Shown: in pieces, positions 13,113 through 37,363 of the stretch
How the letters are laid out: every line of letters begins with the position of its first letter
How positions within the stretch are numbered: position 1 is the first letter of the stretch
NCBI GenBank assembly: GCA_002790395.1
Contig: PFVB01000004.1
Location: 4,379 to 41,836, forward strand
Direction of reading: 5' to 3'
Source of the DNA: Ignavibacteriales bacterium CG_4_9_14_3_um_filter_34_10
GTDB taxonomy: Bacteria > Bacteroidota > Ignavibacteria > Ignavibacteriales > Melioribacteraceae
Length of the DNA stretch: 37,458 bases
The notes under the pieces: model-generated
What the model saw: only the letters and a program-made list of their open reading frames with translations
Databases searched by the model: none
What the model was told of the DNA's origin: nothing
Position numbers and translations under genes: made by a program

Positions 13113-13802
13113 ATGGCAGATAAGTCAAAACTTTGGTACTTGGAAAACTTTAATCTTTTCAGCGAACTTAGTAAAGACAAAATGATGGAATTGAATCGCA
13201 TGATTAGCGATAAAGAAACACAAGGAGATGAACCCGTTTATTTTGCTGAAGAGCCATCTAAAAATATTTATTTCTTAAAAACAGGCAGAGTCAAAATCAC
13301 AAAATATCTTGCTGACGGAAGTGAAAAAATTATCGCGATTATTAATCCCGGTGAAATATTTGGCGAAATGGCTTACTTCGACGAAGCTCAGAGAACTGAT
13401 TTTGCTATCACGTTAGAACCATCTTTAATTTGTGCAATCAACAAAAATGATCTCGCCTCATTTATTGAAAAAAACCCGGCTTTAAATATTCGGTTGACTA
13501 AAATACTGGGCTTTAAAATCAAAAGTTTTACTGAAAGGATAGGGGATTTAATTTTTAAAGATGCTGATCAAAGAATTGCCTCTTTCATTTTAAGATACGT
13601 AGAAAAAAACGGCAAAAAAATTGGGGATCAGATTTTTATAAAACCTTTCTTAAAACATCAGCATATTGGTGAACTCACTGCTTGCTCCCGACAAACGGTT
13701 AATTATTTTTTAACTGGTTTAAGAGAGAAAGGAATAATTGATTTTGACCGCAATAAATTAATTGTGAACAAAATTTACGAGCTAAAAAAAGTAGTGTCGT
13801 AA
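13113..13802 (+). CDS. Crp/Fnr-family transcriptional regulator
   Basis: Residues 14-130 form a cyclic-nucleotide-binding-like sensor domain (NLFSELSKDKM, YFLKTGRVKI, INPGEIFGEMAYFD). A dimerisation helix follows (about 130-150), then a C-terminal winged helix with QHIGELTACSRQTVNYFLTGLREKGII (about 183-209). Only Cys107 and Cys191 are present, so there is no FNR-type Fe-S cluster. The phosphate-binding Arg of true CRP is not evident; the segment reads AQRTDFAIT. Recognition-helix residues Arg193 and Gln194 (SRQTV) match the RQTV arrangement I recall from CO sensor CooA, whose half-site is TGTCA. It is the only regulator of its kind in a window with seven TGTCAA-N4-TTGACA sites, so it is their best candidate ligand (inference). 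No such site precedes its own gene. Confidence 0.9.
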   Translation: MADKSKLWYLENFNLFSELSKDKMMELNRMISDKETQGDEPVYFAEEPSKNIYFLKTGRVKITKYLADGSEKIIAIINPGEIFGEMAYFDEAQRTDFAITLEPSLICAINKNDLASFIEKNPALNIRLTKILGFKIKSFTERIGDLIFKDADQRIASFILRYVEKNGKKIGDQIFIKPFLKHQHIGELTACSRQTVNYFLTGLREKGIIDFDRNKLIVNKIYELKKVVS

Positions 13803-13839
13803 AATTGACATTTAATCATTTCTTATTTGCATAAATTTA
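13795..13839 (+). promoter_or_regulatory. Crp/Fnr-type operator plus -7 element for the thioredoxin-like/AhpD-like pair
   Basis: TGTCGT-AAAA-TTGACA (13795-13810) matches the window consensus TGTCAA-N4-TTGACA at 10 of 12 arm positions. Exactly 21 bp downstream lies TAAATTTA (13832-13839). The operator overlaps the stop of the Crp/Fnr gene and ends 55 bp before the thioredoxin-like start. Confidence 0.6.
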
Positions 13840-13864: not shown

Positions 13865-14122
13865 ATGAATATTAAACTTATTGTTTCTCAGAATTGCAAG
13901 GCATGTGAACGGGCAAAAGAAACACTTGAGTCAATTAACTTAAGGAATTATAAAATCTATTTTGAAACAATTGATATTAAATCATACAATGAGAAAAATA
14001 TTTCGATTACTCCGGCATTAATTATAGATGATAAAATTTTTTCATATGGAGATATAGACATTCAAAAGTTAAACAAAAAAATAAGCGGAGGTTCTTTTGC
14101 CATTTATCAAAATAATCAGTGA
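13865..14122 (+). CDS. Small thioredoxin/glutaredoxin-like protein (CKAC)
   Basis: An 85-residue thioredoxin-fold miniature. A first strand IKLIVSQ leads to the redox motif Cys11-Lys-Ala-Cys14. The helix CERAKETLESI, the strand YFETIDI, and the cis-proline region ISITPALIIDDKIFSYGD follow, as in glutaredoxin-like or MtaR/arsenate-type small thioredoxins. There is no signal peptide, so it is cytoplasmic. It overlaps the AhpD-like gene by 26 bp and is likely its thiol reductant or partner (inference from pairing). Expression is probably controlled by the operator 55 bp upstream. Confidence 0.75.
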   Translation: MNIKLIVSQNCKACERAKETLESINLRNYKIYFETIDIKSYNEKNISITPALIIDDKIFSYGDIDIQKLNKKISGGSFAIYQNNQ

Positions 14123-14654
14123 AGATAATGCTCAAGGGAAATTAAAAGAAGTTTATGAAAATATTATAAAATCACGGGGAAAGTTATCCAACATTATGAA
14201 AATACATAGTTTAAATCCTGATGCTATGATTAAACATATGGACTTGTATAAATCTTTGATGTTTGATAAATCAAATCTTTCACGCGAACTTAAAGAAATG
14301 ATTGCCGTTGTAGTTTCGGTTGCTAATAAATGTGAATATTGCATTTATCATCATGCTGAAGCATTAAATTTTTATTGGAAGGATAAAGAAAAATTAAATC
14401 AGTTTATTAATGATTTCAGAAGCTCTGGCGCTGATCCAAAAACTATTATTTTGCTTGAATACGCAAACGAATTGACAATTTCTCCAAATCATATTTCCCA
14501 ATCCACAATTGATAAAATAAAATCTTTTGGATGGAATGATGATGATATACTTCTGACTAATTTGATTGTAAGTTATTTCAACTTCGTAAACAGAATTGCT
14601 CTTGGACTTGGTGTTGAGTTCTCGCAAGACGAAGTTAGTGGTTATAATTATTAA
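14097..14654 (+). CDS. AhpD-like peroxidase-related protein
   Basis: A carboxymuconolactone-decarboxylase/AhpD-fold protein of the peroxidase-related subgroup, 185 residues. The helical core holds LSRELKEMIAVVVSVANKCEYC and then IYHHAEAL, giving Cys79-x2-Cys82-x3-His86. This is the AhpD CxxCxxxH redox triad, with acidic residues Glu64/Glu67 upstream. The likely role is thiol-dependent peroxide reduction. The start is TTG with GGAGG five bases before it, located inside the end of the thioredoxin-like gene, so translation is coupled. An ATG start is not available before the conserved beginning PFIKIISEDNA. Confidence 0.82.
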   Translation: MPFIKIISEDNAQGKLKEVYENIIKSRGKLSNIMKIHSLNPDAMIKHMDLYKSLMFDKSNLSRELKEMIAVVVSVANKCEYCIYHHAEALNFYWKDKEKLNQFINDFRSSGADPKTIILLEYANELTISPNHISQSTIDKIKSFGWNDDDILLTNLIVSYFNFVNRIALGLGVEFSQDEVSGYNY

Positions 14655-18127: not shown

Positions 18128-18172
18128 TAAATTTCTATACAAAAAGACAATTTGTTTGTCAAACTTTTGACA
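18128..18172 (-). promoter_or_regulatory. Crp/Fnr-type operator plus weak -7 element for gnd-zwf-pgl-nrtS
   Basis: TGTCAA-ACTT-TTGACA (18157-18172, plus-strand reading) is a perfect inverted repeat, 50 bp before the gnd start. At the 21-bp position on the minus strand the element reads GAAATTTA, one base off TAnnTTTA. TATAGA two to four bases earlier is an alternative -10. The site also lies 29 bp before the divergent plus-strand glycosyltransferase, too close for an equivalent promoter there. Confidence 0.7.
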
Positions 18173-19568: not shown

Positions 19569-20264
19569 TCACTCTTTAAGCACACTCGTAAATATAAGAT
19601 ACAATATTTTGATTGAAGCTTTCACTGTCCCTTTAAATGTTCCGGTAACTTTTGATTGACCAATTCTCTTTCTATAACTTACGGGAACTTCTGTGCATTT
19701 TAACTTATGTTTGGCTGCTTTTATTTGCATCTCGACTGTCCAACCAAAGTTTCTATCTCGCATATTAAGTTTAAGCAAAGAAGAATACTTAATCGCTCTG
19801 AATGGACCAAGATCGGTAAATTTATATTCCCAAAAAAGTTTAATCAGAAATGTTGACAGCCAATTTCCGAATACCGCTTGAGGTAGCATTGAACCTTTTT
19901 CTCTGTTACCAATAATTCTGGACCCAATTACCATATCGTAATTACTTTCAATAATCGGTTGAAGTATCATTCCCAACTCATCAGGATAATCACTGTAATC
20001 ACCATCAAGAAAAGAGATTACATCAAATTTTTTCGCTTCAATATAATCCAAACCCTTTATGCACGCAGAACCATAGCCTTTCTCGGGCTCATCTAAAACA
20101 GTTACATTCAAATATTTTGCAATGGCTGCAGTCTTATCAGTCGAGCCATTATTTACGACAATAATTTCATCCACATATTTTGGAATGTCTTGAATAACTT
20201 TTGAAATAGATTCCTCTTCATTGTACACCGGAATAATAACTGCTATTTTGAAATCAGAAATCAT
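19569..20264 (-). CDS. GT2 glycosyltransferase, polyprenyl-phosphate-sugar synthase-like, last gene of the arsenosugar unit
   Basis: A GT-A domain of 231 residues: AVIIPVYNEEESISKVI, VVNNGSTDKT, LDEPEKGYGSACIKGLDY, the DxD-bearing SFLDGDYSDYPDEL, GSRI, and FTDLGPFRAI followed by FGWTVEMQIKA. This layout is like dolichyl-phosphate mannose/glucose synthases. No C-terminal membrane domain is present, only a short amphipathic tail. I place the start at the ATG overlapping the arsS stop (ATGA), because it directly precedes the first strand; a longer frame upstream has no family match. As the last cistron of the arsenosugar operon it may supply or transfer a sugar, but it could be a general enzyme. 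Confidence 0.8.
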   Translation of the reverse strand: MISDFKIAVIIPVYNEEESISKVIQDIPKYVDEIIVVNNGSTDKTAAIAKYLNVTVLDEPEKGYGSACIKGLDYIEAKKFDVISFLDGDYSDYPDELGMILQPIIESNYDMVIGSRIIGNREKGSMLPQAVFGNWLSTFLIKLFWEYKFTDLGPFRAIKYSSLLKLNMRDRNFGWTVEMQIKAAKHKLKCTEVPVSYRKRIGQSKVTGTFKGTVKASIKILYLIFTSVLKE

Positions 20265-21274
20265 TCTGATATTGCCCCACCACAACTGCTGCCAGCTCCT
20301 GCAGTGCAGCCAAAACAATGTGAATCAAAAATAATTTTTCTTTTCTGTAATTTTTCGTAACTGAAATTGAAAACAGTAAGTGGCTCATTATCATAAATTT
20401 GTAAATTTAGCATTTGATTAAAATCGCAATCAAATATTTTCCCATCATACGAAACACTCAATAATGACCGGCACATTACTCCTTTTGCTGCAGAAGGATT
20501 AAATGCATTCACTAATTTTTCCATATACTCATCATACGTTCCTAATCGCTCAAGTTGCTCTTTAAACCTATGAATTGGCATGTTAGTAATAGTATAAAGG
20601 TTGTTAAATTTAATCTGATATTTTTCCCATAGTTCTTTCTTAAAATCTTTTTCCAAATCTTGTTGGCATGCCGGTAAAAATGCACCGACTGGATTATAAA
20701 CCAAATCTAATTTCAATTCTGTGTTTTCATTTCCATATCCAACATCATTAAGCATTTTTAAGGATTCAATACTTTTTTGAAACACTCCTTTACCACGCTG
20801 CTTATCAGTAAAGTACTCCTGATAATAAGGTAAGGATGAAATAACTTCAACATTATTATCAGCATAAAATTTTGGCAGATAGAATTTTGATTCTTTGGTT
20901 GTTGGATCACCATCAATTGTTACAGTCAAGTTATGCCGAACCAAAATATGTTTGCCAAGTTTTTTAGCTTCCGTAACAAAATAGTCAAAATTAGGATTTA
21001 ATTCTGGGGCTCCGCCTGTCAAATCAAGATTTATAATTTGAGGATGCTTGACAAGAATCTCCAAACATTTGTCAATGGTTTCTTTGCTCATCTGCTCAGT
21101 TCGTTTGGGAGATGAATCAACATGACAATGCAAGCAAGCCTGATTACATTTTAATGTAACATTTACCTGAAGTGTTTCTATATTTAATGGAGGTAAATCA
21201 AGATTGTTTTCATAAAGTTTCTGTTCGAAATCATATTTTTTAAAGTTCAATACGTGTAAAGCTTCAGTTTTCAT
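20261..21274 (-). CDS. arsS: Arsenosugar biosynthesis radical SAM protein ArsS
   Basis: Radical SAM enzyme that joins a 5'-deoxyadenosyl group to methylated arsenic in the arsenosugar route. The [4Fe-4S] motif is Cys43-x3-Cys47-x2-Cys50 in LKCNQACLHCHVD. LTGGAPELNPNF follows as the SAM-binding GGE-like motif, with PNF. The C-terminal SPASM-like Cys set includes GVMCRSLLSVSYDGKIFDCDFN and the terminal HCFGCTAGAGSSCGG, which is diagnostic for ArsS. Some homologues carry selenocysteine near this end; here all positions are Cys codons and no in-frame TGA occurs. The length of 337 residues is normal. It follows the peroxidase-like gene by 13 bp. Confidence 0.93.
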   Translation of the reverse strand: MKTEALHVLNFKKYDFEQKLYENNLDLPPLNIETLQVNVTLKCNQACLHCHVDSSPKRTEQMSKETIDKCLEILVKHPQIINLDLTGGAPELNPNFDYFVTEAKKLGKHILVRHNLTVTIDGDPTTKESKFYLPKFYADNNVEVISSLPYYQEYFTDKQRGKGVFQKSIESLKMLNDVGYGNENTELKLDLVYNPVGAFLPACQQDLEKDFKKELWEKYQIKFNNLYTITNMPIHRFKEQLERLGTYDEYMEKLVNAFNPSAAKGVMCRSLLSVSYDGKIFDCDFNQMLNLQIYDNEPLTVFNFSYEKLQKRKIIFDSHCFGCTAGAGSSCGGAISE

Positions 21275-23750: not shown

Positions 23751-24821
23751 CTAACAGCAAGCCCCGGTTGAACAAACATTTTCGCCTTTTGTATCAGAAC
23801 TTGCACAAGAGAACAAACCAAAATGTTTTGACTTATCCCCAAGCAAATCAAAATGCCGTGAATATCTTGTTTCTTTCAGCATATCGAAAGTATTTCCGCA
23901 GACCAACATTGGTTTACCTTTTTCGAAATGATGATGATCATCCAAATCAAAATAATGAGGGAAATTCTGTATTGTTCCATTGTACTTTGCAGTTTGTCCA
24001 TAGTCTTCACATTTATCTTCAAGGTTTAATAACTTGAAAACTCTTACAGTGCTCGAATAAAAATTAACAAATCCAATCTGATCTTCTATCACGGGATTAT
24101 CAATTGTAAGTTTTCTTGTTGATAAAATTCTGAAATCATTTATTCCTAGTTTCAAAATCATTCGTCGGAAATCTTCAATGTACATAGCATTAGCAAGACA
24201 TTCTCCGTATAAAACAGGATCATTTTTCAATTCCGAAGGAATTCTCTTATCAGCAAAAACATCTGAGAAATACAATTCACCGCCGGGTTTAAGAACACGA
24301 ATAATTTCATCAAATACAGTTTCTTTATCATCAGAAAGATTAATTACACAATTTGAAATTACAACATCTATTGAATCGTCTTTAATGCCACAAGATTTTA
24401 AGTCTTCAATATAACCTTTGCGGAAATCAACATTGGAATTTTTGAATCCATATTTTCTTGCTTGCTGAGATTTATATTTATTAGCAACTTCCAATTGTTT
24501 ATCTGTCATATCAATACCAATAACAAAGCCATCGTCACCAACCAGTTTCGAAGCAATATAAACATCTCGTCCCGTTCCGCAGCCCAAATCCAGTATAGAT
24601 TTACTATTTATATCAGGTGGAATTGGAGAACCGCAGCCGTAAAATTTATCTAGTATTTCTGGTTCAATTTGTTTAATGATTTCACGCTGCCACATAGGAA
24701 TTGATTCCGATATACAGCATGCACTTGTTTTTAAATCCTGTGCACTTTTGATTTCATTACCATAATAATTCTGCACCAGTTTATTAATATCATTTTTTCC
24801 ATCTATAGCTTTAATACTCAT
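23751..24821 (-). CDS. arsM: Arsenite S-adenosylmethionine methyltransferase (arsenosugar type)
   Basis: Methylates As(III), the first step of the arsenosugar pathway. From the chosen start the protein has 356 residues. SACC is at Cys35-36, YGCGSPIP at Cys63, motif I is LDLGCGTGRD (78-87), then SNCVINLS (Cys148), RVLKPGGELYFSDVF, and GECLANAMY (Cys198). The 50-residue spacing between the last two Cys is as I recall for the As-binding pair of eukaryotic ArsM. The Cys-rich end CSTGACC may bind arsenic too. The start has AGGAG five bases upstream; a frame extending 21 codons further has no such signal and would start about 5 bp upstream of, or within, the proposed promoter region. First gene of the operon. 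Confidence 0.95.
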   Translation of the reverse strand: MSIKAIDGKNDINKLVQNYYGNEIKSAQDLKTSACCISESIPMWQREIIKQIEPEILDKFYGCGSPIPPDINSKSILDLGCGTGRDVYIASKLVGDDGFVIGIDMTDKQLEVANKYKSQQARKYGFKNSNVDFRKGYIEDLKSCGIKDDSIDVVISNCVINLSDDKETVFDEIIRVLKPGGELYFSDVFADKRIPSELKNDPVLYGECLANAMYIEDFRRMILKLGINDFRILSTRKLTIDNPVIEDQIGFVNFYSSTVRVFKLLNLEDKCEDYGQTAKYNGTIQNFPHYFDLDDHHHFEKGKPMLVCGNTFDMLKETRYSRHFDLLGDKSKHFGLFSCASSDTKGENVCSTGACC

Positions 24822-24849: not shown

Positions 24850-24894
24850 ACAAAATAAAAATATCCCTTAAAACTCTTTGTCAATTTTTTGACA
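24850..24894 (-). promoter_or_regulatory. Crp/Fnr-type operator plus -7 element for the arsenosugar operon
   Basis: TGTCAA-TTTT-TTGACA (24879-24894, plus-strand reading) is a perfect inverted repeat 58 bp before the arsM start. On the minus strand, 21 bp downstream, lies TATTTTGT (24857-24850), a match to TAnnTT. No ArsR gene or ArsR-like site is seen here. Confidence 0.7.
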
Positions 24895-25050: not shown

Positions 25051-27534
25051 CTATAACCCACTTTTCCAATTATTTAGTTTATCGCTTACATCGATTCCTA
25101 TTTCTTTATAAAGTTTGTTTTTCGAATCTGCTTGTGGCAGACTTCCGAATGATAAAACTTGAGTTGGACAATTGACAACACAAGCTGAACACCGAACACA
25201 TTCAACATCATTCATTGGAATTCCTTTATTTGCATAGTTCATTACATCAATTCCCATATGACAAACTTTTGTGCAGATATTGCAGGAAATACATTTTTTC
25301 TTTTCAGAAAATATTCTATATCGTGAAAAGCGATTTACAATATGCATCCACGCAGCAAGCGGACATCCAAAACGGCACCATACTCTTCCACTTAAAAAGA
25401 AATAAACTCCAACCCCTAAAACACCAGCAAATATCACATCAATTCCGATATAATAAAAGTTGTGAAGAAAATCAGAAGTGTAAGAAATTTTTTCATTGAT
25501 AATTGGAATATTAAAATCATAAAGAACTGATATTAATTTTAATCCTGTGATAATAAAAGCAACAAGTAAAGCCCACTGTCCAAAGTTTTCCCATTTCTTT
25601 GCTTCTGGTCCGTGCAGTGCAAGTGTTCTGTATTCATCACCAAGTGTTTCAGCTAATGCACCGCAACTGCATATCCATCCACAATAAGCTCCTTTTCCCC
25701 AGCGATAAACGATGAAAGGAATAACAACAAATGTTTGTAATAAACTGAAGACCAACCAAAATGTTGTTATGCTAGAACCATATAAATTCGGCATAAAAAG
25801 TGGCCACGCTAATATAAAACCGTATGAATGCCAGTAACTTCCATTTGGAAATACTTGTGTCATTATAAATCCATCGTTACTTCCCAATGCACCAATCTTA
25901 CCAAGATATGGAAGAAGAATTTCGGGGAAAACGAACAACGGTAATATTTGGACGAAAATTAAAGCCCAGGTTTGATATTTAATATATTTAGTTGGTTTCA
26001 CTTTCATTCGATGCAAACCAAAAATCAAAATGGTAAATGAATAAAATGCCGTATACCAAAATGCCTGAGATTTTCCAAAGAGTTCTAAACCAAAATATCT
26101 CCCTCCAAAAAATATAACCGCAAAGAAAGCTCCTACCAAAATGAAATAGAAGTACTTGAATGTCTGCCAATTAAATTTCACCTGAGGAAGATAATCCTTT
26201 AGAAATTTATAAAACACATAAACACCAAGTAATACAAATGCAATGAGAGAGAAATAAGCAATCAATGCGTTGAAGTATTTTGTGAAAGACCAAACTTTGG
26301 ATTCATAAATTATATTGGAAAGAATTATCGCTGGAAGTGAAAAGAATTTATTCCAAAACTCAAATGAGAAAATACTGGAAAAAACATTAGACCATGAATC
26401 AACATTTCCAAAAAATTTATCATGAAATTCAGCACTGCTTTTGCCAAAGCATAAGATGCCTGCAAAGAGAAAAAGTAATACTAACTGTAATTTTGAGAAC
26501 AGAGAAAGTTCTCCTTCAATTCTGATATTACTTCGTTTAAAGAATTCAATTGGCAGTTCTTTGCCAATCATTGTAAAAACCATAGAATTCTTAATTTCAG
26601 TTTCCTTTCGATTTTTATCAGTCAAAATTACACTTTCGTTTTTAATCTCCTTAGCATTAGTCTCAAGCAATAAATTTATTTTTCCTTCAGCAACCAGTTG
26701 TTTCAGCTTTTCTTCATTTTGTTCTTTTGGTCTTGCAAATGAAGATTTCCTATAAGAGAGAGCAACAGATTTAGCACAGTGTGCAACTGCAATTGCGGTT
26801 TCAATTGCTGAATCACCGCCGCCGACTACAAGCACATCTTCATTTTTTGCATCATTTGGATCAATTAGTCTGTTGTAAACTTTTGGTAAATCCTCGCCAG
26901 GAACATTCAACATTCTTGCATTACCGGATTTACCAATTGCAAGAATAACTCTCAGAGTTTTAAAGATTCCATCTTTAGTATGAATTAAGAAATACTCTTT
27001 TTCTTTCTGGATATAATCAACCATTATTCCTTCTTTAATCTCAAGAGAATGATTTTTTATTTGATCATAAAGATCATCCAGCAGTGATTCTTTTATACCA
27101 TTCTTTATTATCAGATCAGATTTCTGTTCATATTCATCAGGTGCAGCTATGATTGGTTTAGCTTTTGGAAAATTTACTATAGTGCTAAATTTTTTTGCTG
27201 ATTCCAAAATCAGATAATTCAAATTTCTTTTTGATGCTTCAATCCCGGCAGCAATACCCGCAGGACCTGCTCCAATAACAACAACATCAAAAATTGATTT
27301 ATCATTATTACTATTTTTTAATTTATTGAATTCAACATCAGCTGATAAATAGTCAATAATTTTTTTACCACTTTCAGCAGCGAGTTTTAATAAAGGAATT
27401 CCGGTCAAATCTCCAATTACAAAAACCCCATTAACTGAAGTCTCACCGTTCTCATTTATCTCAGGATATTTTTCAACTAATCCTGTTGGAACATCTTTTT
27501 GCAACCAATTAAAATATGTATTCAATAATTTCAT
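25051..27534 (-). CDS. FAD/NAD(P) oxidoreductase fused to NapH/NosR-like membrane ferredoxin
   Basis: 827 residues in two halves. Residues 80-350 are a thioredoxin-reductase-like flavoprotein: FAD loop VVIGAGPAGIAAG (GAGPAG 88-93) and NAD(P) loop VVGGGDSAIETA (GGGDSA 248-253). The FAD-closing motif, normally C-terminal, is instead at the N-terminus as GVFVIGDLTGIPLL (36-49), a circularly permuted order. No CxxC disulfide centre is seen. From about 359 there are roughly nine membrane helices, with YCGWICSCGALAETLG and VWCRFGCPL as in NapH/NosR, and a C-terminal two-cluster ferredoxin (CISCNICTKVC, CVRCSACVVNCP). It could move electrons from NAD(P)H through FAD and Fe-S centres to a membrane or periplasmic partner (inference). 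Overlaps the Rieske gene by 4 nt. Confidence 0.82.
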   Translation of the reverse strand: MKLLNTYFNWLQKDVPTGLVEKYPEINENGETSVNGVFVIGDLTGIPLLKLAAESGKKIIDYLSADVEFNKLKNSNNDKSIFDVVVIGAGPAGIAAGIEASKRNLNYLILESAKKFSTIVNFPKAKPIIAAPDEYEQKSDLIIKNGIKESLLDDLYDQIKNHSLEIKEGIMVDYIQKEKEYFLIHTKDGIFKTLRVILAIGKSGNARMLNVPGEDLPKVYNRLIDPNDAKNEDVLVVGGGDSAIETAIAVAHCAKSVALSYRKSSFARPKEQNEEKLKQLVAEGKINLLLETNAKEIKNESVILTDKNRKETEIKNSMVFTMIGKELPIEFFKRSNIRIEGELSLFSKLQLVLLFLFAGILCFGKSSAEFHDKFFGNVDSWSNVFSSIFSFEFWNKFFSLPAIILSNIIYESKVWSFTKYFNALIAYFSLIAFVLLGVYVFYKFLKDYLPQVKFNWQTFKYFYFILVGAFFAVIFFGGRYFGLELFGKSQAFWYTAFYSFTILIFGLHRMKVKPTKYIKYQTWALIFVQILPLFVFPEILLPYLGKIGALGSNDGFIMTQVFPNGSYWHSYGFILAWPLFMPNLYGSSITTFWLVFSLLQTFVVIPFIVYRWGKGAYCGWICSCGALAETLGDEYRTLALHGPEAKKWENFGQWALLVAFIITGLKLISVLYDFNIPIINEKISYTSDFLHNFYYIGIDVIFAGVLGVGVYFFLSGRVWCRFGCPLAAWMHIVNRFSRYRIFSEKKKCISCNICTKVCHMGIDVMNYANKGIPMNDVECVRCSACVVNCPTQVLSFGSLPQADSKNKLYKEIGIDVSDKLNNWKSGL

Positions 27535-28625
27535 TTTTCATCCTTAAGTTTTCTTGAAGCTTTTCTTCCGCCTTTTTCAAATTTTTGATCAAGAGCATTA
27601 TCACCAATCATTAAGCTCCCCATTTTAATTATCCGCTCTACTAATGCCTTCGCACCGTTATGCAATTCAAGATTTTCTTTAACGTATTTAACATTATTTT
27701 CCATGTCCTCAGCAGTCCACCCACGCGAATGAGCAATAAATGGAAACTGAGGAAACTGACAGCCAAGTTCAGCAAAAAAACTCAGCATGCTTCCGGCAAC
27801 ACCCTGAACATTATCTTGTCCGCCTGTGATTATTAATCCAACCACTTTATTTTTAAGGAGATGTTTTCCTGCAATGGTCTCCTGATTTTGGATTGAATTC
27901 ATTCTTTCAACCATTTTAAAGTAAAGAGAACTTGGAGCTCCCCATCTAATTGGAGTAGAAATGATAAAAGCATCTCCCCAGTGAACAAATGCTTCATAAA
28001 TTTTTCCCATCTCATCATTTGGATCTTGCTGAGTAATTGTGCAAGGGAAAGTACACGCCCGTGCAGATTGCGAATAATATCCTTCACAATTTCCGATATT
28101 CATATCATTCAGTTTGAATAATTTCGTTTCGCAGCCAAATGATCCAGCATGTCTTAAAGAGATGTCGAGCAAATAATCTGAGGTGCTGAAACGAGGATAA
28201 TTTTTATTCCTCGCAGTTGTAGAAATTCCAACTATCCTGAGATTGCCGGATTCTCTTTGAATTTTTCTTGTCAGAGGATGAGGTGCATGCGGAAGTTTAT
28301 TCCTTTTTGTGGCAGAATCCAAATCAACAAAAAGATTTCCATTCTCAATCTTAAAATTGTAAGAAGGGACTTTATCTTCTTCAAACCCGGGTTCTCCTTT
28401 TCCTGTTTTGCGATGAAATTTCCAGAAATGCCAAGGACAGACAACAAACTCATTATCAATTTTTCCGGTTCCTAAGGGTCCGCCAACATGATTGCAAACT
28501 CCGGAAATAATACCAAACTCATTGTTCTTGTAGCTCACAGCAAATTTTGTTTTACCAAAATTGATTTCCGTCAATTCCTGCATTTTGAATTTTTCAGCAT
28601 TCCCGATATCGACCCAATTAGACAT
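27531..28625 (-). CDS. Rieske ferredoxin fused to NAD(P)H-dependent FMN reductase-like domain
   Basis: Residues 1-105 are a soluble Rieske ferredoxin with [2Fe-2S] ligands Cys44-x-His46 (GVCNHVGGPL) and Cys63-x2-His66 (VCPWHFWKFHRKTG). A linker (KRNKLPHAPHPLTRKIQ) joins residues 128-330. These form a flavodoxin-like FMN reductase domain: RIVGISTTARNKNYPRFSTSDYLLD, FKLNDMNIGNCEGYYSQSARAC, GDAFIISTPIRWGAPSSLYFKMVERM and GLIITGGQDNVQGV. The tail is basic. It has no signal peptide. It overlaps the downstream FAD-ferredoxin gene, so the two probably form one electron chain. The substrate is unknown. CEGYYSQSARAC carries extra Cys that could hold another centre. Confidence 0.85.
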   Translation of the reverse strand: MSNWVDIGNAEKFKMQELTEINFGKTKFAVSYKNNEFGIISGVCNHVGGPLGTGKIDNEFVVCPWHFWKFHRKTGKGEPGFEEDKVPSYNFKIENGNLFVDLDSATKRNKLPHAPHPLTRKIQRESGNLRIVGISTTARNKNYPRFSTSDYLLDISLRHAGSFGCETKLFKLNDMNIGNCEGYYSQSARACTFPCTITQQDPNDEMGKIYEAFVHWGDAFIISTPIRWGAPSSLYFKMVERMNSIQNQETIAGKHLLKNKVVGLIITGGQDNVQGVAGSMLSFFAELGCQFPQFPFIAHSRGWTAEDMENNVKYVKENLELHNGAKALVERIIKMGSLMIGDNALDQKFEKGGRKASRKLKDEK

Positions 28626-28639
28626 CTATGCCCTCAATT

Positions 28640-30187
28640 TTAAAAGTTAAATAATTTTTCATTTGGAATAAATATTTGAACCTTAGTTCCCTTATTTTTT
28701 TCGCTTTCAACCGTAAGATCAAATCCAAGTACATCATTAATTTTCTTTGCCAATGCTAAACCGAGTCCGTTTCCTTCAAACCTTCTTGTATAACTCATAT
28801 CTTCCTGTCTGAAAGGTTTGAATAAATCTTTCATAAATTCCTCAGAAATTCCAATTCCTGTATCTTCAATTAATAAACTTAACCCACCATTATCAGCACT
28901 CTCAATGCATATTTTTATACTCCCTTCCTTTGTATATTTAACTGCATTATCAATTATTTGTTCAACAGCTTCAAGAACTAACCTTTCATCAGCTTTTATT
29001 CTGCTTGTTGATGAAATACATTCATATTTTATTTCAACCCCATTATTTACTACTGTTTTATACTTCAATAAAATTTCATAAATAATATCCTGAAGATTTA
29101 TAAATTTTTCTGAAAACTTATAACTATTGGAAGTAAGTTCACTGTAAAGGACAATTAACTCAACAGTTCTAATTAGTCTGAGACCACCAATTTTTATTGG
29201 CTCTGTAAACTCGCTAAAATCTTTATCGGTAAAATCAGCTATTTCCATTTTTAATATTTCAATATTCCCGAGAATCACATTAAGCGGTGTTCTGATTTCA
29301 TGCGAAAGCACAGCAAGAAATTCTCCTTTCATATTATCAGAAGCCTGTGCTTTTTTAATTGCTTCTTTCAATTCGGCAATTGTCATAAATAAAGTTTCTT
29401 GCTGATCCAAAATTGTTTGCCTCATTCTTTCTGCTGAAACAACCAGATCACTTATTTCTCCGGAAGCCCTTATTTGTTCGCTTTTTGTATAATCCCCTTT
29501 TGAAATTCTGTCTATTCGTTCAATTACTTTATCAATGGGAGCAGTGAAATATTTTGCTACAATAATACTTAATAATATTATAAAAGGAATCAGAATTAAC
29601 CGAAGCCATAAAAGGAAATCATTTATTGAAGAAATCTTTTGCGATACAGTTTTTGCTGAATGATCAACCTGTACAATGCCAACAATTTTTCCTTCGCTAC
29701 TTTTAATGGGCGCCAATCCTGTTATCCATTCACCATTTTGATCGTGATATAAATCAGTGTAGCTACATAAGTCTTTATTAAAGGAATTTAAGAGAGCAGC
29801 TTTTGCAATCTTATTTGACAACAGATGATGTTCGCCGGTATAAAGTTTTGAATTAGTCATCACACCAAATTGTGCTGTATCTTCACTCAATAAATTTAAT
29901 GTATAAATATCTTCTTTAATATTTATTGCGTTTTTCAGAATTATCAAATGGCTTCGAATCTCATTGAATTTCTCATCCAGAATAATTTGCTGATCATTAA
30001 AATTCAACTTTTCGTAGTCATCACCCGAAATTGTATGAGCTGCAGCAACAGCAATTGATTTTAATTTTTCACCTATTAATTCATAGCTGTTTTCTTTGAC
30101 TTTTGGTAAAGCAACTGCCCAAATAATTTGGATAATTATATTGACAACAATTGTCAATATAATTGAAAGTTTAATCCAAAGTTTCAT
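28640..30187 (-). CDS. Sensor histidine kinase with extracytoplasmic sensor domain
   Basis: 515 residues: TM1 about 7-26, an extracytoplasmic domain about 30-190 ending in a Cache/PAS-like GEWITGLAPIKSSEGKIVGIVQVDHS, TM2 about 191-212, and a HAMP linker (FTAPIDKVIERIDRISKGDYT). A coiled coil precedes the kinase core with H-box LAVLSHEIRTPL (His286), N-box DNAVKYTKEG, G1 DTGIGIS and G2 GNGLGLALAKK. It senses something outside the cytoplasm, plausibly redox or a metalloid given its neighbours (inference). No response regulator is encoded in the window, so it is an orphan here. It lies 14 bp before the Rieske gene and 15 bp after the peroxiredoxin-like gene. Confidence 0.9.
   Translation of the reverse strand: MKLWIKLSIILTIVVNIIIQIIWAVALPKVKENSYELIGEKLKSIAVAAAHTISGDDYEKLNFNDQQIILDEKFNEIRSHLIILKNAINIKEDIYTLNLLSEDTAQFGVMTNSKLYTGEHHLLSNKIAKAALLNSFNKDLCSYTDLYHDQNGEWITGLAPIKSSEGKIVGIVQVDHSAKTVSQKISSINDFLLWLRLILIPFIILLSIIVAKYFTAPIDKVIERIDRISKGDYTKSEQIRASGEISDLVVSAERMRQTILDQQETLFMTIAELKEAIKKAQASDNMKGEFLAVLSHEIRTPLNVILGNIEILKMEIADFTDKDFSEFTEPIKIGGLRLIRTVELIVLYSELTSNSYKFSEKFINLQDIIYEILLKYKTVVNNGVEIKYECISSTSRIKADERLVLEAVEQIIDNAVKYTKEGSIKICIESADNGGLSLLIEDTGIGISEEFMKDLFKPFRQEDMSYTRRFEGNGLGLALAKKINDVLGFDLTVESEKNKGTKVQIFIPNEKLFNF
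30134..30164. repeat. Long perfect palindrome inside the start of the histidine kinase gene
   Basis: AATTATATTGACAA (30134-30147) and TTGTCAATATAATT (30151-30164) are perfect 14-bp inverted arms separated by CAA. It lies 23-53 nt downstream of the kinase start codon, within the first membrane helix. In mRNA it would be a strong, AU-rich hairpin near the ribosome. It contains TTGACA and TGTCAA but in the opposite order to the operators of this window. Confidence 0.6.
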
Positions 30188-30202
30188 TTTAATCTCTCTG
30201 AT

Positions 30203-30829
30203 TTATTTGTAAATTTTTACAGCTTCTAAAAGTAATTTGCCGCTGATTCGTTCTTTGTAATTTGGATTGACATATTCGAAAACAATTTTTCCCTTGTCAT
30301 CAGTAACAAATACACTTGGAACAGGCAGAATGTGGTGATTTTCACCGGAGCTTTTTTCGATATCCATGTTGTAGTTTTTAAGTTTATTTATATAATCATC
30401 TTCAACATGAAATGCAATTCCAAAAGATTTGCATGCATTAGCTTTGCTATCGGAATAAAGTTCATATTTGAGATTATGCTTTTCAATACTAGCAGAAACA
30501 TTGTCAGGCTTATCCATACTGATAGCAATAATTTGAAACCCAAGGTTTACAATTTTATTTTCATAATTCTGTAAATCATTTAATTGCAAATTACAGAAGG
30601 GACACCAGCCACCTCTGTAAAATATTATTGCTGACTTTTTTCCGTTAATGATAGTTTTTAGATCTGCGATCTTATTATCAATTGAGGTTATCACGGCACT
30701 TGGAACAAATTCGCCAATTTTAATCAGGCAAATATCTTCGGCTGATTTTGCAACTTTATATTTATTTTGTTCCATATAACTTCCTGATATTTTAGCAATT
30801 AATAAAAATAAAATAATGATTTTTCTCAT
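30203..30829 (-). CDS. Exported peroxiredoxin-like (AhpC/TSA-family) protein
   Basis: 208 residues with an N-terminal hydrophobic signal segment (KIIILFLLIAKISGS). The thioredoxin-fold core has IIFYRGGWCPFCNLQLNDL, with Cys76 and Cys79 where 2-Cys peroxiredoxins have a single peroxidatic Cys in PxxxTxxC. This GGWCPFC form is that of the peroxiredoxin-like AhpC/TSA group. IIAISMDKPDNV and ILPVPSVFVTDDKGKIVFEYV follow. Cys108-like and other Cys in ANACKSFGI may act as the partner thiol. The likely role is extracytoplasmic peroxide or disulfide chemistry. It follows the Tat protein gene by 35 bp and precedes the kinase. Confidence 0.82.
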   Translation of the reverse strand: MRKIIILFLLIAKISGSYMEQNKYKVAKSAEDICLIKIGEFVPSAVITSIDNKIADLKTIINGKKSAIIFYRGGWCPFCNLQLNDLQNYENKIVNLGFQIIAISMDKPDNVSASIEKHNLKYELYSDSKANACKSFGIAFHVEDDYINKLKNYNMDIEKSSGENHHILPVPSVFVTDDKGKIVFEYVNPNYKERISGKLLLEAVKIYK

Positions 30830-30864
30830 ATAAAAATCTCATTTATTAAATAAATAAACTTATT

Positions 30865-31587
30865 TTAATTTCTTATATCAATAAATATTTCATCTTTACT
30901 AAATTTTTCATGAAGTTTTTCTTTAACATTAATTTTAATATAAGAAATAATTTCATGGTCTCTATCTTCGAATGGTTCTCTATAATTGTCCATTACATAT
31001 TTGCTTATCCATTCATCTCTTTGTTCAAATAGACTGTTAATTTCTTTTGAATATGCTTTAAATATATAATTAATAAACTTAACGACTCTATTATCTTCAA
31101 ACAATTCAGGATTTACAAAGAACTTATCTGCGTATTGATTCAAAGTATTTGCTTTAACGAATTTATCGCCTGTTACCCATCTGTTAACCGTAGCCAATAC
31201 AATTGGAATACCATCTTCATTCATTGAAATCAGAATAAGATGAATTAAATCTCCGTTTTCATCTTTTGCAAAAGTGTGGAAGTGTCCATATTCATTTGGG
31301 CGATGCGCATGGAAAAACAATTGGTATCCACTATTTTCATCCTTAATTCCGCCATCATAAGGGTAATGTGTGTAAGGGTCATAAACATATTCTTTACCCA
31401 TCATAATTTTCCTGACAAGACTACTCCCCTCTCTCTTTAATTCAATTAATAATTGTATAATTTTTTCTTTGAAATCATCAACGGAATCAATAAAATCATA
31501 TAGAGTTTTTGAATAATTAACTTTTGACAAAAACAAAAAGCCGAAAGAGATTAAACTTCCGGCTTTGATAAATTTTCTTCTGTTCAT
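30865..31587 (-). CDS. Tat-exported protein of unknown function (HAHR...GHFHTF motif)
   Basis: 240 residues from the chosen start. The N-terminus MNRRKFIKAGSLISFGFLFL is a twin-arginine signal (RRKFIK), which decides the start; an upstream ATG 12 codons earlier would overlap YceI and bury the motif. The body has VYDPYTHYPYDGG, YQLFFHAHRPNEYGHFHTFAKDENGD and LATVNRWVTGDKF. The closely spaced His (HAHR, GHFH) look like a metal site. I recall a similar pattern in DUF6969-type proteins but am not certain. Tat export suggests folding with a cofactor before transport. It follows YceI by 17 bp. Confidence 0.7.
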   Translation of the reverse strand: MNRRKFIKAGSLISFGFLFLSKVNYSKTLYDFIDSVDDFKEKIIQLLIELKREGSSLVRKIMMGKEYVYDPYTHYPYDGGIKDENSGYQLFFHAHRPNEYGHFHTFAKDENGDLIHLILISMNEDGIPIVLATVNRWVTGDKFVKANTLNQYADKFFVNPELFEDNRVVKFINYIFKAYSKEINSLFEQRDEWISKYVMDNYREPFEDRDHEIISYIKINVKEKLHEKFSKDEIFIDIRN

Positions 31588-31604
31588 TCTGATATTACTT
31601 TTAA

Positions 31605-32348
31605 TTATTTCTTTGGAGCACAAGGATTACAGGGATTGCTCTTTGCCTCTGCCTTTTTCATTGCACAAGGATTGCATTTTTCATTGGATTTACTTGGGCT
31701 ACAAGCACCACATGGATTTGCACTTGAGTTTGCATCACTTGCCACAAAATTAGTTTTTATCTCCACTTCATCATTAAGTTTACCTGAAACCATTGATGGT
31801 ATTTTTATTCCATAATCAGAAAGCTTAATACTAAAGTCAGCATTTGCAACAAGTAAATTTCCGGGTGCTTTTGCTTTTGTCTTTTCACTTTCCTTGAAAT
31901 AAGTTAATGTAGCAGGTACTTCTATTTCTTTTGTAACACCATGTACGCTGAATTTTCCCACCAATGTAACTTTTGTTTTCTGTCCGTCATTTAACTTTTT
32001 TGAAGAGGCATTTTTAATCCCTGTCAATTGAAATACAGCATGAGGATATTTAGCTGAGTTCAGCCACATTTCACTTCGTAAATGTTCATCCCGTAAATCA
32101 ATTCCCGTTTTAATGCCATTTACAGGTACTTTAACTTTACCCATCGGATTTTCAGTTACATCAGATGGATTAATCATAACTGTTGCATCAAGTCCGCTAG
32201 CAAGTCCTACAATTTTTTCAAATGGTGCGTCGGAAATAAAAGATGCCTGATTTCTTCCGTCTTTGGAATCGGCTGAAAAAGACTGGGCAAAAAGATTTAA
32301 GCCAAAGACTAATGTTAATACTATTGTTAATATATTTTTTGTTTTCAT
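31605..32348 (-). CDS. YceI-family lipocalin-like protein with Cys-rich C-terminal tail
   Basis: 247 residues: signal peptide (MKTKNILTIVLTLVFGLNLFAQ), then a YceI domain to about residue 203 (DSKDGRNQASFISDAPFEKIVGLASGLDA, LRDEHLRSEMWLNSAKYPHAVFQL, KVTLVGKFSVHGVTKEIEVPATLTY, DFSIKLSDYGIKIPSMVSGKLNDEVEI). YceI proteins bind polyisoprenoids or quinone-like lipids in the periplasm. The tail is unusual: three CxxC pairs (Cys213/216, Cys225/228, Cys240/243) in NPC-type repeats separated by Lys/Ala spacers. It suggests metal or metalloid binding or redox capacity (inference). It is the first gene of a six-gene unit behind the operator 62 bp upstream. Confidence 0.88.
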   Translation of the reverse strand: MKTKNILTIVLTLVFGLNLFAQSFSADSKDGRNQASFISDAPFEKIVGLASGLDATVMINPSDVTENPMGKVKVPVNGIKTGIDLRDEHLRSEMWLNSAKYPHAVFQLTGIKNASSKKLNDGQKTKVTLVGKFSVHGVTKEIEVPATLTYFKESEKTKAKAPGNLLVANADFSIKLSDYGIKIPSMVSGKLNDEVEIKTNFVASDANSSANPCGACSPSKSNEKCNPCAMKKAEAKSNPCNPCAPKK

Positions 32349-32380: not shown

Positions 32381-32425
32381 GAAATTTATTTTAATTTCTA
32401 TTTACAGAATGTCAACTTTTTGACT
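32381..32425 (-). promoter_or_regulatory. Crp/Fnr-type operator plus -7 element for the YceI to FAD-ferredoxin unit
   Basis: TGTCAA-CTTT-TTGACT (32410-32425, plus-strand reading) has one mismatch from the perfect repeat and lies 62 bp before the YceI start. On the minus strand, 21 bp downstream, is TAAATTTC (32388-32381). It lies just after the stop of the DsrE gene. Confidence 0.65.
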
Positions 32426-32435
32426 TCCGTTCATT

Positions 32436-32966
32436 TTAATAACTGTAATAAACATCTGCATTGTTTATTCGTGATGCTAATTCTTGTAATGTAATTGGTT
32501 CAATATAATTTGGAATATTCCTTTTTCCTTTCACTTCTTTCTCAACACTTGTAAGCACATTCCAAGTGCCATTTACAGAAATTGTTGCTCCTTTATCATG
32601 AAGTAGTTTTAGAAAATCTTCGAAGTTTTTTACTGATAATAAACTTTTATCCTTCACTTGTTCAGAAACTAATTTTTTGAGATCAGCGGGCACTTCATAT
32701 CTGTCAAAATCATTTTTACCTTTTGTAAATTTCAGATTCCAAGCAGCATCTGCATCAAATAAGAATTCTACTTTGTTACCAAGTTTTAAGTTTACCAAAG
32801 CCACATCAAAAGCGACACAAACCGGTCCATCCGCTTTTTTTACATTTGATACAAGGTGAATTATAACTTTCTTTGAGTTTCCGTTACTGCCAATATATCC
32901 TGCAAATAATGCTGATATTAAAACAACAGCAGCAATCAGATATGAATATTTTATATTTTTTTTCAT
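32436..32966 (-). CDS. Membrane-anchored or exported DsrE-family protein
   Basis: 176 residues with an N-terminal hydrophobic anchor or signal (YLIAAVVLISALFAGYIG). The DsrE/F-like fold follows: KKVIIHLVSNVKKADGPVCVAFDVALVNLKLGNKVEFLFDADAAWNL, then FEDFLKLLHDKGATISVNGTWNV. Cys50 in GPVCVAF is the only obvious Cys and not at the usual DsrE active position, so sulfur-carrier activity is uncertain. It lies 23 bp after the AhpD-like gene and is presumably cotranscribed with it. Confidence 0.75.
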   Translation of the reverse strand: MKKNIKYSYLIAAVVLISALFAGYIGSNGNSKKVIIHLVSNVKKADGPVCVAFDVALVNLKLGNKVEFLFDADAAWNLKFTKGKNDFDRYEVPADLKKLVSEQVKDKSLLSVKNFEDFLKLLHDKGATISVNGTWNVLTSVEKEVKGKRNIPNYIEPITLQELASRINNADVYYSY

Positions 32967-32989: not shown

Positions 32990-33538
32990 TTAAGTGTTTA
33001 TAGTTTTTGCAATTGGAAAATCAATTTCTGGTTTAGCTAATCTTCCAATATAATTTGTAAAACTCTTTTCAATAACGAGAGCAACAAGTTCAACCAAAGC
33101 ATCTGACTTAAAACCCATTTCATAGAAAGCATCAATTAACTTTTCATCTGCTCTTCCTCGATTTTCGACTATTGATTTTGCAAGATTTGTCAGCACATTA
33201 TATCTTATATCTTTTATGGTTCCGGCTCTCAATTCCAAAGTTTCTTCCTCTGAAAACCCATTCATCCTGGCAAGTGCAGTATGTGCTGAAACACAATAAT
33301 TGCAGCCATTCGATTCAGAGACAGCAAGAAATATTGCTTCCTGTTCTTTTGCATTAAAAGAACAATTCTTTAATAATTCTGAGAAAGTCAAATATGATTC
33401 TAATGCAACTGCTGAATTGCCGATAACAGCATAAATATTAGGCAGAATACCAATTGAATTTTTGATCCTACCAAATAATATTTTACTTTTTTCAGAAGCC
33501 GTATTATTTGTAACTGCATTCAGTTTATTCATTTTCAC
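32990..33538 (-). CDS. AhpD-like carboxymuconolactone decarboxylase-family protein
   Basis: 182 residues, cytoplasmic. The helical AhpD core is FNAKEQEAIFLAVSESNGCNYCVSAHTALA, giving Cys79-x2-Cys82-x3-His86 with Glu65/Glu67 upstream, the complete AhpD triad. GRIKNSIGILPNIYAVIGNS at the start is typical of the CMD family. It is the third AhpD-like protein of the window and, like the other two, sits in a unit with a TGTCAA-type operator, here 63 bp upstream. The expected role is thiol-dependent hydroperoxide reduction, with the reductant unknown. Confidence 0.87.
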   Translation of the reverse strand: MKMNKLNAVTNNTASEKSKILFGRIKNSIGILPNIYAVIGNSAVALESYLTFSELLKNCSFNAKEQEAIFLAVSESNGCNYCVSAHTALARMNGFSEEETLELRAGTIKDIRYNVLTNLAKSIVENRGRADEKLIDAFYEMGFKSDALVELVALVIEKSFTNYIGRLAKPEIDFPIAKTINT

Positions 33539-33571: not shown

Positions 33572-33616
33572 TAAAACTAATTTTAATTCTTTGCTGATTC
33601 TGTCAAGGAATTGACA
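33572..33616 (-). promoter_or_regulatory. Crp/Fnr-type operator plus -7 element for the AhpD-like/DsrE unit
   Basis: TGTCAA-GGAA-TTGACA (33601-33616, plus-strand reading) is a perfect inverted repeat 63 bp before the AhpD-like start. On the minus strand, 21 bp downstream, is TAGTTTTA (33579-33572). It lies 6 bp beyond the stop of the NADH dehydrogenase gene. Confidence 0.72.
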
Positions 33617-33622: not shown

Positions 33623-34918
33623 TTACTTAGTTTCATATGGAGATTGATTGATATTGTTTGCAATTAGTCTGGCACTTTTATGAGTGGTGAAATAATTGAA
33701 AGCCCATTGAATTGAGACAAGAATTCTGTTTTCAAAACCAATGAGATATAATAAATGAACAAACAACCAGATAAACCAAGCCGGAAATCCCGACATCCAA
33801 ATTTCATTACGATATGCAACCGCTGCTTTTCTTCCTATAACTGCTAAATTTCCTTTATCAAAATATCTAAATGGTCGCAGACTCTTTTTGTTAGTCAATA
33901 ACTGATAAATTCGTTTTGCCACATATTTACCTTGCTGCATTGCAACAGGTGCAGTTCCAGGAAGCGGTATGTCATCTTTTGTACTGATATTTGCAATGTC
34001 TCCAATTACATAAACATTAGAGTAATCTGTTAATTCACAAAATCGATTTGCAATTATTCTTCCTCCTTTATCAACATCAAGATTATATTTTTTAGATATT
34101 TTTTCAATCAGATTTTCAACTCTTACTCCCGCTGTCCAAATTACTATGTTTGCTTTTATGATTTTAGTTACGTCAATGGAATTAAGCTCTATGACACTTT
34201 GTTCAATTCTTTTCACAAAACTGTTTGTAATAACAGAAACTCCAAGCTGTTCAAGATTGGATTTCGCTTTTTGGGATAATGAATCAGGATAAGTTGGGAG
34301 AATTCTGTTGGTTCCCTCTATCAAAAGAATTTTTGCTTCATTTGTATTGATATTTCTAAAATCACAATGAAGTGTCATTCGGGCTAATTCAGCTATTGCA
34401 CCGGATAACTCAACTCCTGCTGGTCCACCTCCAATGATTGCAAATGTCATATATTGTTTTTTCTTTTCAACATCACTTTCTAATTCAGCTTTCTCGAAGG
34501 AGGATAAAATCAAGTTTCTAATTGATGTTGCATCTTCAATACTCTTCAATCCATAAGAATATTTAGTCCATTCGTTTTTCCCATAATAATGTGTCTTTGC
34601 ACCGGCAGCAAGGATTAAAAAGTCATATTTAATTTTTTGTTTTGATGTAATTACTAAATGATTTTCGAATTCAACATCAATTACTTCTGCATGAACAATA
34701 TTTACGTTCTTCTTATTTTTAAAAATAGCTCTCAATGGGAATGCTATATCAGCAGGAGATAAACCGCCACTGGCAACTTGATATAATAAAGGCTGAAATA
34801 AATGGAAATTTCTTTTGTCAATTAAAGTTACGTTAACATTTTTTTTGCTAAGAATAACTGCAGCATTTAATCCTGCAAATCCCCCACCAATAATTACAAT
34901 ATTTTTCTCAAAACCCAT
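33623..34918 (-). CDS. ndh: Type II NADH dehydrogenase
   Basis: 431 residues from the chosen start. Single-chain, non-proton-pumping NADH:quinone oxidoreductase. The FAD loop IVIIGGGFAGLNAAVIL is near the N-terminus, then RNFHLFQPLLYQVASGGLSPADIA (quinone-site signature), YDFLILAAGAKTHYYG, the second NADH loop FAIIGGGPAGVELSGAIAELA, IVIWTAGV, NVYVIGDIA and APVAMQQGKYVA. The C-terminus has amphipathic/membrane helices (FPAWFIWLFVHLLYLIGF) for membrane attachment. The start is the ATG with AGGAAAAG upstream, adjacent to the first strand; a frame 43 codons longer would run through the proposed promoter and an upstream terminator. It seems to be a single-gene unit. Confidence 0.93.
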   Translation of the reverse strand: MGFEKNIVIIGGGFAGLNAAVILSKKNVNVTLIDKRNFHLFQPLLYQVASGGLSPADIAFPLRAIFKNKKNVNIVHAEVIDVEFENHLVITSKQKIKYDFLILAAGAKTHYYGKNEWTKYSYGLKSIEDATSIRNLILSSFEKAELESDVEKKKQYMTFAIIGGGPAGVELSGAIAELARMTLHCDFRNINTNEAKILLIEGTNRILPTYPDSLSQKAKSNLEQLGVSVITNSFVKRIEQSVIELNSIDVTKIIKANIVIWTAGVRVENLIEKISKKYNLDVDKGGRIIANRFCELTDYSNVYVIGDIANISTKDDIPLPGTAPVAMQQGKYVAKRIYQLLTNKKSLRPFRYFDKGNLAVIGRKAAVAYRNEIWMSGFPAWFIWLFVHLLYLIGFENRILVSIQWAFNYFTTHKSARLIANNINQSPYETK

Positions 34919-34947
34919 CTCTTTTCCTTTAATGTTATTTAATGCTG

Positions 34948-34992
34948 TAAAAATAGCAAGGCTAATTAAAATCATATGTCTTCTAATTGACA
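34948..34992 (-). promoter_or_regulatory. Crp/Fnr-type operator plus -7 element for ndh
   Basis: TGTCTT-CTAA-TTGACA (34977-34992, plus-strand reading) matches 10 of 12 arm bases and lies 59 bp before the ndh start. On the minus strand, 21 bp downstream, is TATTTTTA (34955-34948), a full match to TAnnTTTA. I found this weaker repeat by the half-site and the spacing rule then held. Confidence 0.58.
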
Positions 34993-35000
34993 CAACACAA

Positions 35001-35030
35001 ACAAAAAACCCGATTATCTCTAACCGGGTC
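35001..35030 (-). terminator. Intrinsic terminator of the T9SS-sorted protein gene
   Basis: On the minus strand ACCCG-G-TTA-GAGA-TAA-T-CGGGT forms a 9-bp stem (one G-U) with a GAGA tetraloop, followed by six T. It begins about 26 bp after the stop of the large gene at 35056-37272 and separates it from ndh. Confidence 0.75.
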
Positions 35031-35055
35031 TTTTGAGAGGGTATCATGGGAAATC

Positions 35056-37318: not shown

Positions 37319-37363
37319 TAAACTTACCTGATGAATTCAACTGTTACTGTCAAGGATTTGACA
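37319..37363 (-). promoter_or_regulatory. Crp/Fnr-type operator plus -7 element for the T9SS-sorted protein
   Basis: TGTCAA-GGAT-TTGACA (37348-37363, plus-strand reading) is a perfect inverted repeat 76 bp before the start. On the minus strand, 21 bp downstream, is TAAGTTTA (37326-37319). Confidence 0.72.

Follow-up and report, generated by a model that had tools for sequence, protein, structure and literature searches.

The six-gene operon at positions 25051 to 32348 of a 37,458-nucleotide stretch of DNA from Ignavibacteriales bacterium CG_4_9_14_3_um_filter_34_10 (contig PFVB01000004.1 of assembly GCA_002790395.1, positions 4,379 to 41,836; hereafter the window) is, by comparison with related genomes, a patchwork of two modules and no conserved six-gene redox chain. 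One module is a conserved stress core, the other an electron-transfer gene that travels with arsenosugar biosynthesis, and here a single regulator apparently presides over both. Within the core, a protein of the DUF6969 family (PF22308) keeps a strikingly constant neighbour from phylum to phylum, namely a secreted protein in which Pro-Cys or Cys-Pro is repeated. We infer that DUF6969 binds metal and that it modifies these Cys repeats, or loads them, under thiol, sulfane-sulfur or soft-metal stress.

The six open reading frames (ORFs) run co-directionally on the minus strand from 32348 to 25051, separated by 17, 35, 15, 14 and -4 bp. An initial annotation of the window had described a tightly packed operon in which no gap exceeds 35 bp, and both this arrangement and the domains it named are confirmed. 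The operon begins with a secreted YceI-domain protein (31605..32348; PF04264, 87.3 bits against a cut-off of 23.7) that carries a C-terminal NPC/CxxC Cys-repeat tail, followed by DUF6969 (30865..31587; 125.6 bits, Pfam gathering cut-off 27) with a twin-arginine-type N-terminus and six invariant histidines. An AhpC/TSA-type thioredoxin-fold protein with a CPFC motif and an N-terminal signal-like segment comes next (30203..30829; PF00578, 76 bits), and its gene adjoins DUF6969 in relatives as well. Domain matches define the remaining three: an orphan membrane histidine kinase of HAMP-HisKA-HATPase type with an extracytoplasmic sensor (28640..30187), a fusion of a Rieske [2Fe-2S] domain to an NADPH-dependent FMN reductase (27531..28625), and a protein we call FAD-NapH (25051..27534), in which a YpdA/TrxR-type FAD domain devoid of CxxC is joined to a NapH/NosR-like polytopic Fe-S membrane domain. 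No response regulator is encoded among the genes adjoining the kinase. The start of DUF6969 is taken as 31587 because aligned homologues begin at that methionine (M13, in the conserved MNRRKF); the TTG at 31623 that had been listed as its start is probably incorrect.

Does this set of genes recur elsewhere? We compared 116 related genomes, the window's own included; some are incomplete, and ORFs in fetched genomes are six-frame calls. The recurring unit is CMD2-YceI-DUF6969-peroxiredoxin-kinase, usually with CMD1 and genes for a Crp/Fnr protein and a small thioredoxin-like protein no more than a few kb away, and it is found in synteny and with the operator described below in at least eight genomes (L135, L138, L140, L141, L143, L145, L149 and L153). 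CMD2, the AhpD-like first gene of this core in relatives, lies at 32990..33538 of the window (minus strand). DUF6969 is present in 20 of the 116 genomes and the Rieske-FMN fusion in four. The complete six-gene order recurs in 1 of 115 relatives (G112, locus L135), where the contig end cuts FAD-NapH. Most relatives have the core without FAD-NapH and the Rieske fusion, and FAD-NapH, at 61-73% identity, is also found without the core, mostly alone or beside arsenosugar genes or zwf/gnd/pgl; in one genome (G014) FAD-NapH, Rieske-FMN and kinase genes are neighbours. Scattering in relatives, which the initial annotation had named as speaking against a single system, is thus seen for the Rieske fusion and FAD-NapH and not for YceI-DUF6969-peroxiredoxin-kinase. 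We also observed Fe-S and FMN glutamate-synthase-type fusions adjoining DUF6969 operons (Rieske in L144:7608-9233, CDGSH in L234:7679-9220), which echo the Rieske-FMN protein of the window.

The operator is a two-fold symmetric palindrome of 16 bp, TGTCAAN4TTGACA. A copy with one mismatch, AGTCAAAAAGTTGACA, lies upstream of YceI (32410..32425) and a perfect copy precedes arsM and the arsenosugar operon (24879..24894), as the initial annotation had claimed in assigning both operons a common operator; each is followed 21 bp downstream by a TAnnTT box. The same +21 box accompanies perfect copies before the CMD2-DsrE-like genes (33601..33616) and before the type IX secretion system (T9SS) protein and NDH2 genes (37348..37363, conserved in L135), as well as a degenerate copy with two mismatches between the Crp/Fnr gene and the thioredoxin-CMD1 pair (13795..13810). 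The perfect copy at 18157..18172, which separates gnd-zwf-pgl from a divergently oriented gene for a membrane protein, is without the box. A one-mismatch site with the +21 box precedes gnd in another genome of the set (G030, L038:14709); NADPH supply through gnd-zwf-pgl may be part of the regulon. Genome-wide there are five perfect copies, four of them inside the window, and the reversed control gave none. The fifth (G000:C198, L131:996-2437) lies 60 bp upstream of a DUF6789-small membrane protein-YjeF_N operon that adjoins the same core in relatives; DUF6789 is also found near DUF6969 in Flavobacteriales (L172) and in Burkholderia glumae. We considered and rejected the palindrome as a general promoter element: five perfect copies occur here and none in 93 of the 116 genomes.

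The spacing of these sites is nearly invariant. A TAnnTT box stands exactly 21 bp past the palindrome, on at least one side, at 25 of 27 distinct perfect sites, with other offsets occurring 0-4 times. The -7 element of Bacteroidota-type promoters is TAnnTTTG, and the fixed spacing therefore places the palindrome centre near -41, a class II position; the arrangement is consistent with a class II activator site. Which protein binds it? The perfect motif is present in 14 of 16 genomes with an orthologue (at least 70% identity) of the Crp/Fnr-family protein encoded at 13113..13802 on the plus strand (cNMP-binding and HTH_Crp_2 domains, PF00027 and PF13545, both above cut-off), versus 9 of 100 others (p 2e-10). 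This protein is probably the regulator of the putative operator sites, and the fixed spacing offers a ready promoter assay.

FAD-NapH belongs with arsenosugar biosynthesis by its distribution. The radical SAM enzyme ArsS is encoded in 22 of the 116 genomes: in 19 of 21 genomes with FAD-NapH versus 3 of 95 others (Fisher p about 1e-16, or about 2e-9 when collapsed by genus, phylogeny being only partly corrected for). The co-occurrence of DUF6969 with ArsS is at chance level (6 of 20, p=0.21), so that of the families proposed to track arsS, FAD-NapH does and DUF6969 does not. This association points to FAD-NapH as an unassigned redox component of arsenosugar biosynthesis. The protein scores below the cut-offs of the families it resembles (60.6 versus 213 bits for NapH, TIGR02163; 148.3 versus 339.9 bits for YpdA, TIGR04018). 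Its N-terminal FAD domain is cytoplasmic and six predicted spans, one of them sub-threshold, precede the first cluster motif, so that all Fe-S motifs should face the cytoplasm, a topology that speaks against its passing electrons directly to the periplasm. Nor is there an evident carrier that would take them across the membrane to the periplasmic proteins. FAD-NapH was also seen within clusters of GT2, DUF2064 and other glycosyltransferase genes, on a Pseudoalteromonas plasmid (L310, G164) and in L306, with arsS unseen in the fetched stretches.

An alignment of 24 DUF6969 sequences retains H86, H105, H107, H114, H116 and H128 without exception, together with Y87, D95, E111, W149, D220 and E224, a pattern that suggests a metal site. 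The AlphaFold2 model has a mean predicted local distance difference test score of 81, exceeding 90 across most of the core; a profile search of PDB sequences with DUF6969 gave no match. An RRxFLK-type leader is found on Ignavibacterial and other Bacteroidota members. We found no literature on DUF6969, on NPCAAK, or on YceI with Ignavibacteria, in a search that missed most subscription journals, and among papers on YceI with arsenic, titles and abstracts mention nothing of the present system.

The tail of the operon's YceI protein reads NPCGAC, KCNPCA and NPCNPCAPKK. The CxxC tail of the initial annotation is thus real, and it is kept in orthologues and absent from two unrelated YceI proteins of the order; the protein that bears it is a putative client or substrate of the DUF6969 protein. 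When genomes were scanned more widely, DUF6969 turned up in Flavobacteriales, other Bacteroidetes, Kapabacteria/OPB56, one deltaproteobacterium and Leucothrix/Thiotrichaceae, and at every such locus but the deltaproteobacterial one (L174) a secreted Cys-repeat protein is encoded next to it: a YceI ending in the same tail (L172), CHPK/CNPK peptides (L173), CAPK peptides (L175, L176) or (NPCAAK)n fused to cytochrome c (L177-L180). DUF6969 is found in 30 of 369 gammaproteobacterial genomes with (NPCAAK)n, (NPCAPSARGG)n or (SPCGL)n as partner, on a Burkholderia glumae plasmid with (CAPK)n and in Ciceribacter with (NPCSA)n. Under a strict definition (four PC or CxPK motifs in a span of about 45 residues, no more than 1.5 kb from DUF6969), a Cys-repeat partner is present at 33 of 52 DUF6969 loci and in none of 171 background windows taken from the same sets of loci, a modest background number. 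Some loci outside this definition still encode a Cys-rich secreted peptide (CCG in L205, CAAT in L204) or, in L190, a YceI with a shorter tail; three alphaproteobacterial loci (L222, L223, L225) have no clear Cys-repeat partner among their six-frame ORFs. None of eight partner proteins scored above any NCBIfam cut-off and none of four of these matched Pfam. The constant neighbourhood of DUF6969 gives genome searches a handle on new Cys-repeat proteins that both databases miss.

Other genes around DUF6969 share the theme of thiols, sulfane sulfur and thiophilic metal(loid)s. The 83 neighbouring ORFs at 20 gammaproteobacterial loci include eight Sulf_transp, eight Rhodanese, three SoxA/TsdA cytochrome and one MNIO (PF05114) match, and an MNIO gene adjoins DUF6969 in L230. 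Mercury-resistance-type genes (MerR or MerT, MerA-like) directly flank DUF6969 in L144 (1375-4379) and L173 (4133-9753). On the B. glumae plasmid pBIN_2 (L247, 25000-60000), one island holds arsS, the TIGR04282/04283 arsenosugar glycosyltransferases, DUF6969 with its CAPK-repeat peptide, DUF6789 and two DUF2282-DUF692 sets. In two lineages an ACCS-motif outer-membrane-like protein and then a DUF3179 protein are encoded just downstream of DUF6969 (L142:6778-8834, L172:10957-13043).

How might these parts work together? We give about even chances to the view that the locus is a Crp/Fnr-controlled regulon for thiol, soft-metal(loid) and peroxide stress, as opposed to an electron chain of six steps. 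Its regulator, encoded at 13113, would bind the palindrome and activate as a class II factor; in this genome the operator would also govern the arsenosugar operon, the Rieske-FMN fusion and FAD-NapH having been added to the core. DUF6969, metal-dependent and exported in Ignavibacteria by twin-arginine translocation (Tat), would act on its partner's Cys repeats, which in this operon make up the YceI tail, by modifying them or loading them with metal. Once mature, the tail would serve in the periplasm as a ligand for thiophilic metal(loid)s or as a carrier of sulfane sulfur. Thiols may be kept in the reduced state by the small thioredoxin, the AhpD-like proteins and the peroxiredoxin-like protein with the CPFC motif. 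FAD-NapH may use its cytoplasmic Fe-S centres to transfer electrons of NAD(P)H, exchanging them with the quinone pool or with a cytoplasmic acceptor that arsenosugar synthesis needs. This offers the DUF6969 family a testable function. More tentatively, DUF6969 could be a new family of metal-dependent enzymes, non-MNIO by the profiles tested, that modifies Pro-Cys-repeat cysteines of secreted proteins across several phyla and so would define an undescribed class of metallophores or sulfur carriers; in Ignavibacteria it would be periplasmic and act on the YceI tail within a dedicated Crp/Fnr regulon.

Several points weigh against this proposal. The regulon and the role of DUF6969 are both read from sequence and genome comparison, to which core synteny, operator architecture, co-occurrence, tail conservation and invariant residues belong as direct observations. 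It is the invariant histidines and the gene neighbourhood, and these alone, that suggest an enzymatic role, and a Foldseek search of the PDB with the DUF6969 model returned no significant match (no E better than 0.23). Gammaproteobacterial members are without a visible signal peptide, so the compartment differs among DUF6969 lineages; about a third of the DUF6969 loci fall short of the strict repeat definition; and the neighbouring genes point variously to sulfur, mercury, arsenic and copper, which leaves more than one candidate ligand. Crp/Fnr proteins of the class found without the motif have a nearly identical recognition helix, so that comparing helices does not tell the two classes apart. 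Outside the order, FAD-NapH stands alone or beside glycosyltransferases, no arsS being seen in the stretches fetched, and its role may therefore be wider than arsenic.

Of the other explanations, we regard one centred on sulfane-sulfur or thiosulfate metabolism as possible, at well short of even chances. The repeats would ferry persulfide sulfur among rhodaneses, YeeE/YedE transporters and cytochromes, and the operon would answer reactive sulfur species, not metals. The sulfur-related neighbours of the gammaproteobacterial loci and the fusion of (NPCAAK)n to a SoxA-like cytochrome c in Leucothrix fit this explanation, as do two rhodanese genes, one divergent from the L038 operator and one beside DUF6969 in L173, and operator-linked genes include DsrE-like, OsmC and NDH2/SQR-type members; however, neither rhodanese nor YeeE was found adjoining the operon in the window, and the mer, arsS and bufferin-type neighbours elsewhere suit metals equally. 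It is unlikely, to a somewhat greater degree, that a different regulator binds the palindrome, or that the palindrome is a repressor site overlapping a -33 element. The TTG within its right half-site, TTGACA, does lie some 27 bp ahead of the TAnnTT box, and the recognition helix is not peculiar to motif-bearing genomes; yet the presence of the motif goes with that of the Crp/Fnr orthologue, next to whose gene it is located, and its 16-bp two-fold symmetry is that of Crp/Fnr sites.

Could all six genes instead serve arsenic, as an operon for arsenosugar export or detoxification? We consider this improbable. The operator common to arsM and the six-gene operon, the DUF6969 gene inside the B. glumae arsenosugar island and the tracking of ArsS by FAD-NapH speak for it, but many genomes hold the core without arsS, and arsenic as the general purpose of the whole operon was rejected on the chance-level co-occurrence of DUF6969 with ArsS. 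The initial annotation's suggestion of arsenic, oxyanion or peroxide handling accordingly survives in the thiol/peroxide flavour of the genes and in the regulatory link to arsenosugars, and not as an arsenic function of the entire operon. Least probable of all, in our estimate, is the extracytoplasmic-to-cytoplasmic electron chain of six components proposed in the initial annotation, with FAD-NapH feeding periplasmic thiol proteins. The genes are tightly packed, their order is repeated in G112 and three of them are adjacent in G014; against this stand the rarity of the full set and of the Rieske-FMN fusion, the usual occurrence of core and FAD-NapH apart from one another, and the predicted cytoplasmic position of the Fe-S motifs.

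The stress regulon as we propose it extends to further genes of the window. Upstream of YceI on the minus strand lie a secreted DsrE-like protein (32436..32966), called by eye and without Pfam or NCBIfam match, a 68% homologue of which adjoins FAD-NapH in L038, and an NDH2/SQR-type FAD oxidoreductase (33623..35047; PF07992, 157 bits, and PF22366). A 738-residue T9SS-tailed protein (35056-37272) stands behind a perfect operator and has a 74% homologue with the same operator in G112 (L135). On the plus strand, the Crp/Fnr gene is followed by the small thioredoxin/glutaredoxin-like protein with a CKAC motif (13865..14107; PF13192, 33.9 bits) and the AhpD-like peroxidase-related enzyme CMD1 (14097..14654; TIGR01926 above cut-off). 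The arsenosugar operon, on the minus strand, begins with the arsenite methyltransferase gene arsM (23751..24821, its start corrected from the TTG at 24884), whose top NCBIfam matches are arsenite methyltransferase models, every score being below cut-off; ArsS, for arsenosugar biosynthesis, is encoded at 20261..21274 (TIGR04167, 427 bits, cut-off 300). Rfam gave no match anywhere in the window.

Bufferins and oxazolins are secreted Cys-rich ribosomally synthesized and post-translationally modified peptides, modified by MNIO/DUF692 enzymes (PMC12452194). Our results suggest that the DUF6969 system is a parallel to the copper-binding bufferins: in both, a signal-bearing Cys-rich or Cys-repeat protein is encoded beside a dedicated His-rich partner in a context of metal stress, here with DUF6969 as the candidate modifying protein, and sets of both types share the one B. 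glumae plasmid island. Unlike in bufferin systems, the partner is not an MNIO protein (no PF05114 match among the operon and flanking proteins scanned), the repeats are of Pro-Cys types, the Ignavibacterial repeats form the tail of a folded YceI domain, and DUF6969 has a Tat-type leader; YceI, NPC and arsenic all go unmentioned in the paper on the MNIO landscape. The arsenosugar cluster (ArsM, ArsS, TIGR04282/04283 glycosyltransferases, DUF547) lies directly downstream under the same operator and co-occurs with FAD-NapH through ArsS, whereas the YceI-DUF6969-peroxiredoxin-kinase core is mostly without ArsS. NapH/NosR-type Fe-S proteins and YpdA/TrxR-type flavoproteins are each homologous at the domain level to one half of FAD-NapH, but here the halves are fused in one polypeptide that scores far under either family cut-off. 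With the YceI family, the operon's protein has the PF04264 domain and secretion in common and differs in its Cys-repeat tail and DUF6969 partner. Finally, the promoters resemble class II Crp/Fnr-activated promoters in having a 16-bp palindrome near -41 before a -7-type box, and differ from them in the half-site, which is TGTCAA here and not TGTGA or TTGAT.

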